Below are positions 2,393-7,655 of a stretch of 11,746 nt of DNA, in pieces. Position numbers and translations under genes: made by a program. Below the pieces are notes generated by a model. That model had not been told where the DNA came from. It did no database searches and worked only from the letters and a program-made list of their open reading frames with translations. Source of the DNA: Acidobacteria bacterium UBA7540 (GTDB lineage Bacteria > Acidobacteriota > Terriglobia > UBA7540); the NCBI GenBank assembly GCA_002478145.1, contig DLMI01000012.1, positions 1 to 11,746 on the forward strand, read 5' to 3'. Numbering within the stretch: position 1 is the first letter of the stretch; every line of letters starts with the position of its first letter.

Positions 2393-4017
<1,625 letters not shown>

Positions 4018-5256
4018 TCAAGCGGGCATTGGCCCGTCATGGGCGGGCTCGAACAAAGCAAGGTAAGGAGCGTAGCGAAAGCGCCGGTTGCGTTGATAGC
4101 CTGTGACCTCTTCAAGCAAACCGAGCTTCACGAATCGGTTGACCACCTTGTTTGCGGTGACGAAGACGCAGTTCAGACGCTGCGCGACCATGCGAATAGT
4201 AACGATCGGTTGCTCAAACAAGTATTCAAGCAAGAGTAGGTCATAGGGCGTAGCCCCCCCCTCGTCTCGTGAATATCCGGCAAAAGCTCTCAGGCGGCGC
4301 GACCGAAGCGACTCGGGCCCCGCAGTCGCCGACTTATCCGGCAGCAGTTTTTCACTGAGTAGCCGGCGATGCTCCTCCCTTAGCCGAACGATGGTGCGCG
4401 CCGTCTCAGTTGCCTCTCGGCTGACTTCAAGAACACCACGGACAAAAAATTTCAGCCAGCCTTCCCAGTCGCCGTCGTTGCGAATGGCCATCAGCCGGTC
4501 GTAGTACTCGGTGCGATGCTGTTTCAAGTAGTGGCTGAGATAAAGCAGGGGTCGTCCTAGCGCCTGTCTGTGGCAAAGAAGAAAAGTGATAAGGAGACGT
4601 CCGACTCTGCCATTGCCGTCAAGAAACGGATGGATGGTTTCAAACTGCGCGTGAGTAAGGCCGCATTGGATGAGCAGCGGGAGTGAGTTGTCGTGAAGAA
4701 ACTTCTCCGTATTGTCCAGCGCCTCACACATTTCGTGGACAGGAGGAGGCACGAATGTTGCAGTATTGAGTGTGCATCCCGGCGGGCCAATCCAGTTCTG
4801 AGTGGTGCGAAACTCCCCCGGGGTGCGGTGCGAGCCACGCACCCCTTCGAGCAACTTGCCATGGATTTCGCGGATCAGCCTCAGGCTCAAGGGCAGTGTC
4901 TTCAGGCGTTCCAGGCCGTAATTCATAGCGCGCACGTAGTTGACGACTTCCTGGATGTCTTTCGGAAACTCCCGCCCTTTTGAGTCCACTTCAAATTGGA
5001 GAACGTCTTCGAGATTGCTCTGGGTGCCCTCGATTTGCGAACTCAACACTGCCTCTTGCCGGACATACATGGAGACAAAGAGGTCAGGGTTGGGGAGAAC
5101 GGTCGCGACTCCGTCCAGTCGACCCAGGGCACGATCCGCTTCAGACATGAGCCGGCCCAACTCGGCATCGATTTCGATGGACGGATCAGGCGGCAATGGA
5201 GCGGGAATGAACGCCTGGTAACCCGTCGCTTGTTTTACATAAATTCCAGCTCGCAT
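4018..5256 (-). CDS. Fic-domain protein with C-terminal winged helix (probable AMP-transferase)
   Basis: 412 aa from an ATG at 5256. The N-terminal region (about 30-90) holds SSQIEG at 72-77, matching the [S/T]xxxE[G/N] inhibitory-helix motif of class II Fic proteins, whose Glu blocks ATP. The Fic core carries the full active-site motif HPFLDGNGRVGR at 209-220, with catalytic His209. The C-terminal part (about 335-400) looks like a winged helix-turn-helix (YDLLLLEYLFEQP, VAQRLNCVFVTANKVVNRF, KLGLLEEVTG). Fic enzymes usually transfer AMP from ATP to Ser/Thr/Tyr of target proteins. Built-in inhibition means no separate antitoxin is needed. The winged helix and the repeated motif upstream point to autoregulation. 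It is followed, 117 nt later, by the ATPase/T4SS-like operon. It has no visible secretion-signal domain such as BID, so an effector role is not supported. Confidence 0.93.
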   Translation of the reverse strand: MRAGIYVKQATGYQAFIPAPLPPDPSIEIDAELGRLMSEADRALGRLDGVATVLPNPDLFVSMYVRQEAVLSSQIEGTQSNLEDVLQFEVDSKGREFPKDIQEVVNYVRAMNYGLERLKTLPLSLRLIREIHGKLLEGVRGSHRTPGEFRTTQNWIGPPGCTLNTATFVPPPVHEMCEALDNTEKFLHDNSLPLLIQCGLTHAQFETIHPFLDGNGRVGRLLITFLLCHRQALGRPLLYLSHYLKQHRTEYYDRLMAIRNDGDWEGWLKFFVRGVLEVSREATETARTIVRLREEHRRLLSEKLLPDKSATAGPESLRSRRLRAFAGYSRDEGGATPYDLLLLEYLFEQPIVTIRMVAQRLNCVFVTANKVVNRFVKLGLLEEVTGYQRNRRFRYAPYLALFEPAHDGPMPA

Positions 5257-5394
5257 AACATGCAGACCGTGGTTAGCTGCTTATTTTACCGCACGGACTT
5301 CACCAGAAGGCTCCGGCACCTTATTTTACAATGCTGGCACATTGTAAAACAAGAGTGTGAGATAGGCATGCATGTTTCATCCGATAAAATAAGC
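5228..5394. promoter_or_regulatory. Cluster of five 11-bp motifs upstream of fic (candidate operator)
   Basis: Five copies of GTAAAAYAAGS surround the fic start. On the minus strand: GTAAAACAAGC (5238-5228, inside fic codons 7-10), GTAAAATAAGC (5289-5279) and GTAAAATAAGG (5329-5319). On the plus strand: GTAAAACAAGA (5344-5354) and ATAAAATAAGC (5384-5394). The TAAAAT core on the minus strand also resembles a -10 box, so binding would be expected to block transcription. The winged helix of the Fic protein is the obvious candidate reader, but this is inferred. Confidence 0.6.
5320..5353. repeat. Palindrome CTTATTTTACAATG-n6-CATTGTAAAACAAG
   Basis: The two 14-bp arms (5320-5333 and 5340-5353) are complementary at 13 of 14 positions, with the inner 10 bp (TTTTACAATG / CATTGTAAAA) perfect, around the 6-bp spacer CTGGCA. 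It is centred about 80 bp upstream of the fic ATG and contains two of the five repeated motifs. It suits a dimeric repressor site; as RNA it would be an AT-rich hairpin without a following T-run, so a terminator is unlikely. Confidence 0.7.
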
Positions 5395-5731
5395 TCCACT
5401 CGGGAGCCTGCGAAATCCAGGCAAAAGCTGACTAAGAAGGAGCGGTTCCGAAGGCAGAGGATACAAGTCGAAGAACCTGTGGCGGGACATGTGGAGCATG
5501 ACCGCCATTCGGCGTTGGCTACCTACCCCCGCCACTCACGTCAGAATAACGTTGGCATAGCACCCCAGGAGAGCAGTCCACAATTTATTTCACCGGTCGA
5601 CAAATGTGAGAACCACCTCTCAGAGCATTTTCGTGCGCGCTAGTCCTCGGGCAATGGGTAGTGTTCAAGGCTTTAAGGTCCTGTTCGGCGTGTGCCCAAA
5701 CTGCTCTCGCGCCTGAGGCAGGGGCCCTCGT
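5395..5731. other. Intergenic stretch without a supported gene
   Basis: Between the fic operator region and the promoter of the next plus-strand gene. Open frames exist on the plus strand but they are continuations of the antisense of fic or lack a ribosome site and recognisable protein features. It holds the right copy of the 21-bp direct repeat. Possibly the remnant of an old insertion. Confidence 0.4.
5595..5615 (+). repeat. 21-bp direct repeat, right copy (flanks fic)
   Basis: GGTCGAC-AAA-TGTGAGAACCA, identical at 19 of 21 positions to the copy at 3980-4000 and in the same orientation. It lies about 340 bp upstream of the fic start codon. Same-direction orientation argues against the pair being the two ends of one simple insertion sequence. 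Confidence 0.6.
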
Positions 5732-5760
5732 TTGACTGCCTTTACATCTTCCCTTACAAC
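5732..5760 (+). promoter_or_regulatory. Sigma-70-like promoter, probably giving a leaderless mRNA
   Basis: TTGACT (5732-5737, 5 of 6 to TTGACA) and TACAAC (5755-5760, 4 of 6 to TATAAT) are separated by exactly 17 bp. Transcription would be expected to begin about 7 nt after the -10 box, at about 5767, which is the ATG of the next gene. That gene has no Shine-Dalgarno sequence, consistent with a leaderless transcript. Confidence 0.5.
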
Positions 5761-5766
5761 CAAGCC

Positions 5767-6681
5767 ATGATAGACACAGCGTTGCGAGCCGAGCTAAAGA
5801 ATGCCCTCATCAAACAGGAGCTTTCCGGCGGAGGCTGGAGTTATGGTCGAGCGCCGACTCAGGCTGCCCTCGAGCCGACGTGTCTCGCTCTCCTGGCTCT
5901 GAGATGGGATTCCAGTCCTGCCCGTGCCCTCGGCCTTGAGTTTTTGCTCGGAATGCAGAATCCAAACGGAAGCTGGCCAGCGTTCAGTGGCGACGACTCC
6001 GAGGGTTCAGGTCTAACGGCTTTGGCAGTGATCGCGCTCATCAACAATGGCGAGATGGCGCTTCAAACAGAGCGCGGAGTCGAATGGCTGCTGCGATTGA
6101 AAGGAAGAGAATCACACTGGCTTTGGAGATGGAAGTTTGACACCACGGATACTCACGTCCGCTTTGACCCCAACAAGTTCGGCTGGCCGTGGCAGCCTGG
6201 CACTTGCAGTTGGGTTATCCCTACGGCTCTGTCAATCATTGCGCTGAAGCAGGGATTCGTGTGCTGCAAGCCAGAGCAGGTCAGCTTCCGAATCCGGCGC
6301 GGCAAGGAGATGCTGCTAGATCGCGTCTGCCCCGGCGGAGGGTGGAATGCCGGAAACGGTGTGGTTTACGGAGTTCCTCTGGCGCCACATCTGGACGCCA
6401 CGGCCGTCGCCTTGCTCGCCCTGGGCGGAGAGCAGAGCGATGGCGCCATAGCCTCCGGTCTTGATTGGCTCGAGCATAGGGCGGGGACTTGCTCCGCGCC
6501 TTGGAGCTTGGCCTGGTCCATCCTGGCTCTTGATGCCTACGGCCGACCCGTTGCGGGTTTGGTTGATCGCCTCTGTGCTCTGAGGGATCCAGCCCTCCTC
6601 GCGGATTCTGCCACCCTGGCCGCTGTGATCCTAGCCGTTGATTGCCTGGTCGAAGGCAACGTTTTCAAGGTGATCGCATGA
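5767..6681 (+). CDS. Squalene-cyclase/prenyltransferase-repeat protein
   Basis: 304 aa from the ATG at 5767; an in-frame GTG at 5692 would add 25 residues but would overlap the proposed promoter. The protein is built of alpha/alpha-barrel repeats like those of squalene-hopene cyclases and prenyltransferase beta subunits. Evidence is the QW-like segments GGGWSYG (about 21-27), QNPNGSWPAF (about 63-72) and GGGWNAGNG (about 190-198), each followed by Ala/Leu-rich helices such as TCLALLALR, GLTALAVIALI and ATAVALLALGG. It is about half the length of a true squalene-hopene cyclase and lacks the DxDD acid motif, so cyclase activity is doubtful. No signal peptide is evident. Its stop overlaps the start of the DUF362 gene (ATGA, 6678-6681), so the two products are probably made together and may act together. 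Substrate unknown. Confidence 0.8.
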   Translation: MIDTALRAELKNALIKQELSGGGWSYGRAPTQAALEPTCLALLALRWDSSPARALGLEFLLGMQNPNGSWPAFSGDDSEGSGLTALAVIALINNGEMALQTERGVEWLLRLKGRESHWLWRWKFDTTDTHVRFDPNKFGWPWQPGTCSWVIPTALSIIALKQGFVCCKPEQVSFRIRRGKEMLLDRVCPGGGWNAGNGVVYGVPLAPHLDATAVALLALGGEQSDGAIASGLDWLEHRAGTCSAPWSLAWSILALDAYGRPVAGLVDRLCALRDPALLADSATLAAVILAVDCLVEGNVFKVIA

Positions 6682-7655
6682 CAAGAAGAAGCTTGCTAGC
6701 CGGTTCTGTCGGACTTGCAGCGGGAGCCGCGACTGCCGCTCCCTTTCTCCTACCCAAATACGACCGAGTTCGGCGACCCGCCCGTTCACGCGTCGCCATC
6801 GTGCGTGCGGACGAGTATTCGGAACGGCTTGAATGGACCTTGATGAGCGCTTTCCGGTTATTTGATCTCGACATCGCTGGAAAGTCGGTTCTCTTAAAGC
6901 CGAACCTCGTGGACTTCGTACCGGGCGTCGCTATCAATACTGATCCCCTTTTAGTCACTACCGCCGCGGAGTGCTTCAGGCGGCTTGGTGCTCTCTCTGT
7001 CACCGTCGCTGAAGGCCCAGGGCACCAGCGGGACACACAACTTGTACTTTTTGAAAGTGGGTTCCAAGACGAACTCGCCAAACAGCATATTCCCTTTGTT
7101 GATCTGAACCGAGATGAGCTGGTTAAGATTAAGCTCTGCACAAGGTACACCGGCCTGGGCCATCTTTTTCTCCCACGGACAGTGCTCAGCCATGACTTCG
7201 TCGTTTCCATGCCCAAGGTGAAAACCCATCACTGGTCGGGTGTCACGCTAAGCATGAAGAACATGTTTGGCGTTGTCCCAGGCACAAAGTACGGCTGGCC
7301 CAAGAACATCCTGCACTGGAGCGGAATCCAGCAGAGCATCCTCGACGTTTGTGCGACGGTGCCGATTCATTTCGTCATCGCTGATGGCATTGTAGCGATG
7401 GAAGGAAACGGTCCTCTTGCCGGCACTTCCCGGCCGCTCCACAGCATTGTGCTTTCAGATGATCCTGTAGCCGCGGATGCAACGTGCGCGAGGCTCATGG
7501 GATTCAAACCGGAAAGGATTCCCTACATCTATGAAGCCGTGAAATTCCTGGGCAACGCCTCAACGAAATTGATCGATCAGCTTGCCGGCCAGGTCACAGC
7601 GCCAGACATACCCTTCAAGGTAGTGCCGGAATTTGAGCACCTGCGTGCCAGCTAA
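6678..7655 (+). CDS. DUF362 family protein with Tat signal
   Basis: 325 aa. The ATG at 6678 overlaps the preceding stop and has AAGGTGA 5 nt upstream, so this start is preferred to an earlier in-frame one at 6642. The N-terminus TRRSLLAGSVGLAAGAA is a twin-arginine signal, implying export of a folded, possibly cofactor-bearing protein. The body has DUF362 landmarks: SVLLKPNLVDF (about 69-79), VVSMPKVKTHHWSGVTLSMK (about 175-194), NMFGVVPG, IADGIVAMEGNGPLAGT (about 233-249) and VLSDDPVAADATCARLMGF (about 257-275). Many DUF362 proteins carry a 4Fe-4S ferredoxin-like domain; this one has no Cys cluster, so it is the short form. The biochemical function of the family is not established to my knowledge. 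The neighbour is a cyclase-repeat protein. Confidence 0.87.
   Translation: MTRRSLLAGSVGLAAGAATAAPFLLPKYDRVRRPARSRVAIVRADEYSERLEWTLMSAFRLFDLDIAGKSVLLKPNLVDFVPGVAINTDPLLVTTAAECFRRLGALSVTVAEGPGHQRDTQLVLFESGFQDELAKQHIPFVDLNRDELVKIKLCTRYTGLGHLFLPRTVLSHDFVVSMPKVKTHHWSGVTLSMKNMFGVVPGTKYGWPKNILHWSGIQQSILDVCATVPIHFVIADGIVAMEGNGPLAGTSRPLHSIVLSDDPVAADATCARLMGFKPERIPYIYEAVKFLGNASTKLIDQLAGQVTAPDIPFKVVPEFEHLRAS

Follow-up and report, generated by a model that had tools for sequence, protein, structure and literature searches.

The start of the fic gene in the window, that is, in the whole 11,746-nucleotide stretch of DNA analysed, is surrounded by five closely matching half-sites. With good confidence, we read this array as an autoregulatory operator of fic to which the Fic protein itself binds, most probably as a repressor. 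Judged from sequence, the fic product very probably controls its own production. We infer three parts of this reading, namely that Fic is the binding protein, that its binding represses and that the flanking sites cooperate.

Within positions 5229-5393 there are five exact copies of the 9-bp core TAAAAYAAG (5229-5237, 5280-5288, 5320-5328, 5345-5353, and 5385-5393). The first-pass annotation had described five copies of the 11-mer GTAAAAYAAGS. The five sites stand at the level of the exact 9-bp core, whereas the longer motif is exact only in the three minus-strand copies (5228-5238, 5279-5289, and 5319-5329) and is off by one base in the two plus-strand copies at 5344-5354 (GTAAAACAAGA) and 5384-5394 (ATAAAATAAGC). 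The distribution of three minus-strand and two plus-strand copies was the same in our motif scan. Read in the direction of fic, the five cores have their first base at -137 (L), -97 (L), -72 (R), -32 (R), and +19 (R), with steps of 40, 25, 40, and 51 bp between them, and the inner four sites are symmetric around the palindrome centre. The sites at -97 and -72 form the central putative operator dyad, CTTGTTTTA-N16-TAAAATAAG (5320-5353). It takes in the palindrome reported in the first pass, whose 14-nt arms (5320-5333 and 5340-5353) are indeed complementary at 13 of 14 positions (93%) across a 6-nt spacer.

When the 200-bp region was shuffled 3000 times with dinucleotides preserved, the 11-mer with at most one mismatch was found in no copy in 2928 shuffles and in one copy in 72, against five observed. 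The exact core, also observed five times, was absent from 4969 of 5000 shuffles and present once in the other 31. The rest of the window contains only two 11-mer matches, each with two mismatches, and the seven matches found in the whole window when two mismatches are allowed are not unusual against a shuffle mean of 5.45. What is unusual about the array is the clustering and the closeness of the match, not the whole-window count. The Rfam scan of the window gave nothing at the gathering threshold. A terminator reading was rejected, the single weak match (5409-5391) comparing with 0.6 in shuffles.

The fic gene itself (4018-5256, minus strand) encodes a 412-residue protein, predicted from Pfam Fic_N and Fic, the PADLOC SoFic model and a structure model to be a SoFic-type class II Fic with a C-terminal winged helix. 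The active-site motif HPFLDGNGRVGR (residues 209-220; codons at 4597-4632, minus strand) fits the pattern HPFx[DE]GNGRxGR and is intact. In keeping with the autoinhibition suggested by the first-pass annotation, a putative inhibitory motif, SSQIEG, which follows the pattern [ST]xxxE[GN], lies N-terminal to the Fic core at residues 72-77 (5026-5043, minus strand), and S72, S73, Q74, I75, E76, and G77 are all invariant columns. The product scores 402 bits against the PADLOC SoFic model and 153.8 bits against the NCBIfam SoFic equivalog NF046030, whose cut-off is 550 bits; by these scores it is a relative of NF046030 SoFic and not that equivalog. The PADLOC match is the one basis on which an anti-phage role of this fic may be suggested. 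In the search for viral relatives of the Fic protein, none was confirmed.

The winged helix is predicted at residues 337-394 (4075-4248, minus strand). Pfam HTH_13 reaches it at a sub-threshold level only (19.4 vs 26.1). A first structure model from 19 close rows was poor (pLDDT 64.8) and was replaced by an AlphaFold2 model from a 63-row alignment (pLDDT 89.1, pTM 0.87), in which helices 337-348, 354-361, and 365-377 are followed by strands. The third of these is likely to be the recognition helix. The model matches SoFic (3zcn) with a TM score of 0.72 over 381 columns, at 24% identity in the structural alignment, and CbFic2 (8cil) with a TM score of 0.54. The confidence of the model and the full-length match to SoFic both support the C-terminal winged helix that the first pass had predicted.

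Metagenome proteins up to 93% identical to the window's Fic exist, and among the relatives whose upstream DNA could be read, the nearest is the 81% identical protein of Candidatus Acidiferrum (locus L001). All five sites are found there in register, at -138, -98, -73, -32, and +19, each with no or one mismatch; the cores corresponding to -137 and -72 are exact, and those corresponding to -97, -32, and +19 have one mismatch each. In the alignment of the two upstream regions, 33 of 36 site columns are identical, compared with 62 of 118 columns between the sites. In locus L083 the N16 dyad, with a single mismatch, lies at -93/-68, and further sites are found at -119, -32 (one core mismatch), and +19. 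The copy within the coding start, which in the window does overlap fic as had been claimed (codons Val7-Lys8-Gln9), is exact in the window, L002, and L083. It may be kept partly by protein constraint, as it overlaps a conserved V-K-Q. Its GTA is the only one among the 27 valine codons of fic, and L004 encodes V-K-Q with the site absent. In L105 the coding copy is present and the N16 dyad is absent.

For a wider comparison, regions from -160 to +40 were taken from the best 80 fic loci, of which 76, together with the window, were usable; those left out were L003 (contig start), L054 (in-frame stop), L066 (match in pieces), and L079 (match from residue 10). A second set came from the 87 of 396 Acidobacteriota genomes with a match and gave 29 new loci, 26 of which served as held-out regions for the inverted-repeat count. 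L096 was excluded for its closeness to a contig end, and L086 and L089 because they share their contigs with L011 and L051. In the tree, the window belongs to a 15-row clade A (support 99/96), beside A2 with six more rows. Judged by the titles of the records, the members of clade A come from Acidobacteriota, Bacteroidota, Actinomycetota, Planctomycetota, Thermodesulfobacteriota, and other groups; since most of the records are metagenome bins, individual labels may be mistaken. L031 and L034, being close relatives, do not count as independent.

Of the 77 regions, 45 contain an inverted repeat whose arms match at 9 or more of 10 positions; shuffles gave about 11, and the 373 other gene starts of the same loci predict 14.5. 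Of the 26 held-out second-set fic starts, 16 have one, where the controls predict 4.8. The exact core lies near the fic start in eight of the 14 other clade-A regions (0.1 in shuffles, 0.0 at control starts). With one mismatch allowed, it is present in 11 of the 14 (shuffles 1.9, control starts 0.5), in four of six A2 regions (shuffles 0.4), in five of seven regions of the AT-rich group O (shuffles 2.1), and in 10 of 41 of group B (shuffles 3.8). Group C is not enriched in the clade-A core (0 of 8 within one mismatch; shuffles 1.4). At this stringency, a single copy occurs in 13 of 371 control gene starts and two copies in none, while seven of the 14 clade relatives have two or more.

When up to 4 mismatches in 18 positions are allowed, the dyad CTTRTTTTA-N16-TAAAAYAAG is present in 11 of the 20 A and A2 regions and in one of 371 controls, with a peak at gap 16. 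The nine A and A2 regions in which it is absent at this threshold are all five Burkholderiales rows, L058, L026, L048, and L009; the last has the dyad with a gap of 17 instead of 16. The preset test of the first-pass claim, that the motif recurs upstream of homologous fic genes, came out in its favour for the 9-bp core and the N16 dyad, which transfer; the strict 11-mer does not. As a family motif the 11-mer was dropped, being exact in none of the 76 other first-set regions and in one of 28 second-set regions (the coding copy of L083). Single-motif expectation maximisation over the 77 regions collapsed into a mixed palindrome and was also dropped; spacing tests were used in its place.

The spacing was counted in 24 regions, without the window and without the loci found by means of the dyad; L065, L070, L083, and L084 were added after inspection. 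Convergent site pairs have a gap of 16 in 9 of 21 cases and everted pairs a gap of 17-18 in 5 of 6, while the same-strand distances are 40-42 in 7 and 51-52 in 8 of 19. L120, L126-L128, and L150 were found via the N16 pattern and therefore carry no information on gap 16. The dyad-found loci add six everted gaps of 7, with L127 and L128 being near copies. Gaps of 7 and 17, like distances of about 41 and 51, would differ by close to one helical turn.

Group B has a different half-site, CATATTAAA/TTTAATATG. It shows a gap of 7 in 25 of 41 regions (controls 1 of 371), a gap of 15 in the opposite arrangement in 21 of 41 and a direct period of 40 bp in 21 of 41, counts that are partly circular because the half-sites were read off the same sequences. 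Independent of this circularity are the unbiased dyad count and the held-out loci L085, L087, and L088. With no prior motif, ATATT-N13-AATAT proved common to 10 loci, against at most four in 100 resampled sets. By eye, the distant acidobacterial fic genes of L090, L091, L101, L102, and L111 seem to have other inverted repeats upstream, for example of the TAAGTCAA type in L090 and L091. From such sequences, each fic subfamily would seem to have its own half-site.

The specificity of the dyad was examined in ten relatives' genomes (about 48 Mb) with the pattern TTRTTTYA-N16-TRAAAYAA. It occurs at 10 places in seven of the ten genomes, where about 0.2 would be expected at equal base frequencies; the genomes of L009, L023, and L037 gave no match. 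Nine of the 10 places lie upstream of known fic genes, three of them before one gene (L084) and up to about 250 bp away. The tenth precedes, by 34 bp, a second fic of genome G401 that is 55% identical over residues 13-297. The reversed pattern, used as a control, was found at one place in each of two of the ten genomes and nowhere in the 396 Acidobacteriota genomes. In the latter, the stricter 18-position dyad occurs at five places. Four are upstream of fic, 50-65 bp before the aligned start (G001, G151, G191, and G199); the fifth (L125) is 114 bp from a contig end, so that its neighbour gene cannot be judged. Meanwhile, 71 stretches of viral contigs carry the dyad and one of the 71 is beside a fic gene, which rules out the dyad as a fic-only mark everywhere. 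The DNA of these is on average 65% A+T, and we read most of these viral dyads as chance. Genome G401 (L120:1567-2736) has two fic genes, 55% (in the matched part) and 70% identical to that of the window; both have the N16 dyad before them, and their products might cross-regulate.

Apart from fic, none of the window's ORFs has a relative (E <= 1e-6) next to another of the fic genes that were fetched. Since the sites follow one gene family across phyla, lie mostly beside it in bacterial genomes and have no shared neighbour at the window's fic, the gene's own DNA-binding product is the best explanation for them. In the window, fic is followed directly by an AAA ATPase gene of the same orientation (2905-3900, minus strand; AAA, AAA_5), possibly in an operon with it. 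Farther downstream, the minus-strand genes of 3-2908, with a TrbI-like product (33.8, cut-off 35), a weakly CagX-like product and SLT transglycosylase, resemble a cluster for conjugation or type IV secretion. Beyond the array, on the side away from fic, 5692-7655 (plus strand) holds a squalene-hopene-cyclase-like ORF (sub-threshold) and a DUF362 gene. Elsewhere, in a set of loci mostly from group B, the ORF directly upstream of fic encodes the HsdM subunit of a type I restriction-modification system; the three examined, L018, L046, and L053, all have N6_Mtase and HsdM_N. Related ORFs stand in about ten other loci, with one ORF shared by up to 13 others, and in the Synechocystis plasmid matches, restriction endonuclease subunit S is also found under the fic match.

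The array plausibly overlaps the fic promoter. The first pass had placed a -10-like TAAAAT in each copy; every copy contains either TAAAAT or TAAAAC. The R arm of the central dyad provides TAAAAT, which matches five of six positions of the -10 hexamer, and the L arm provides TTGTTT, 18 bp upstream, which matches three of six positions of the -35 and is a weak likeness. With these elements on the two arms and an 18-bp spacer between them, a bound dimer could block polymerase. A consensus promoter scan flagged none on the minus strand at the array and two on the plus strand (0.3 in shuffles); for one of these two, the TAAAAT comes from the outermost copy.

In the mechanism that we propose, a Fic dimer would set its two C-terminal winged helices on the central dyad (-97 to -64), probably overlapping the fic promoter. 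The outlying half-sites 40 or 51 bp away, roughly on the same face of the helix, could be occupied by additional dimers or by single winged helices. This negative feedback would keep the transcription of a potentially toxic AMP-transferase low.

Repression is likely by analogy with CccR of Yersinia pseudotuberculosis, a distant Fic relative reported as a proven autorepressor (PMC9755527). CccR, too, is a class II Fic with a C-terminal DNA-binding domain and an inverted repeat at its own promoter, and the window likewise has an inverted-repeat candidate operator upstream of its fic. CccR is described as repressing its own gene as a dimer; a lacZ fusion was up 3.3-fold in the mutant, and the footprint covered the inverted repeat near -35 and -10 (PMC9755527). 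The reported CccR operator is a single dyad, AGATAATCAT-N26-ATGATAATCT, whereas the window has five 9-bp half-sites of another sequence with an N16 spacer; TAAAAYAAG/N16 shares neither the sequence nor the spacing given for AGATAATCAT/N26 in that source. The CccR spacer would be about one turn wider. In addition, CccR is a T6SS effector, a role of which nothing was seen for the window's fic.

Other Fic systems are alike in part. SoFic of Shewanella oneidensis and the Sofic defence proteins have the fold in common over its full length and match the same PADLOC model, but the identity to SoFic in the structural alignment is 24% and the window's Fic is far below the NCBIfam cut-off. DNA binding by SoFic is stated not to have been demonstrated as of 2023 (PMC10628234), and the Sofic paper of 2025 reports a downstream antitoxin, AS1 (PMC12249575). 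CbFic2 of Coxiella burnetii is a class II Fic with a winged helix that does bind DNA; it was studied with random DNA, and the passages of PMC10628234 drawn on here report no operator. The Phd-Doc operon offers an analogy, made in PMC2686095, of a Fic-fold toxin whose expression is autoregulated at DNA, but its DNA binder is a separate antitoxin, whereas here it is a domain of the enzyme. The same source proposed in 2009 a possible role in controlling fic expression for the HTH domains that are fused to Fic, and a 2026 review mentions that CccR binds its own promoter (PMC12894286). In the open-access full-text literature that we searched, subscription journals lying mostly outside this scope, we recognised no operator of a Fic-winged-helix protein besides that of CccR.

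Fic might also bind the array mainly for control of the enzyme, through its AMPylation/deAMPylation switch, or for activation, with repression secondary or absent. DNA-binding induced (de)AMPylation is indeed reported for CbFic2, already in the title of the paper (PMC10628234), which differs from CccR on coupling, and half-sites beyond one dyad exceed what is needed for blocking one promoter. However, the sites are confined to the fic promoter region, which fits transcriptional control, and CccR, whose regulatory and toxic activities are reported to be independent, autorepresses: repression was lost in its mutant, with only a marginal change in toxicity (PMC9755527). We consider enzyme control or activation as the main role clearly unlikely.

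Motif linkage alone cannot identify the binding protein, and the group-B loci have hsdM upstream in common, so that the sites could belong to another transcription factor controlling fic genes. We regard this as highly improbable, given that no ORF beside the window's fic is common to another locus and that the fic product carries a predicted winged helix of its own. Moreover, in the relatives' genomes the dyad lies almost only at fic, including two paralogues in one genome, which is unlike a global regulator.

That the array amounts to AT-rich, -10-like elements and codon constraint with no operator is hardly credible: TAAAAT or TAAAAC is present in each copy, the conserved V-K-Q means that the coding copy alone proves little and the core exceeds shuffles in AT-rich group O as well, but inverted partners, N16 spacing, and AAG ends are not promoter features, the repeated cores of clade relatives are absent from control starts, and V-K-Q without the site in L004, like the unique GTA valine codon of the window, argues against codon constraint.

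The autoregulatory operator can be extended to a broader reading, which we think unlikely, in which SoFic-type Fics of many phyla have a common operator grammar and the array is a resting state that couples promoter occupancy to the AMPylation/deAMPylation switch. The 9-bp half-sites would then be separated by 16 bp where they face inward and by 7 or 17 bp where they face outward, placing neighbouring dimers whole helical turns apart. If true, this would be a one-protein equivalent of a toxin-antitoxin module, and stripping of the array, for example by phage infection, would release both transcription and enzyme activity.

Fic proteins with a C-terminal winged helix are common, and some are anti-phage toxins; among the literature searched, a defined operator was found for CccR only. 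A conserved, spaced candidate operator that marks these fic genes in several phyla provides a probe for gel shifts and reporters, and through the array the interplay of DNA binding and AMPylation in one polypeptide becomes directly testable. The reading of the array as an operator bound by Fic itself predicts that a potentially toxic enzyme would limit its own production.
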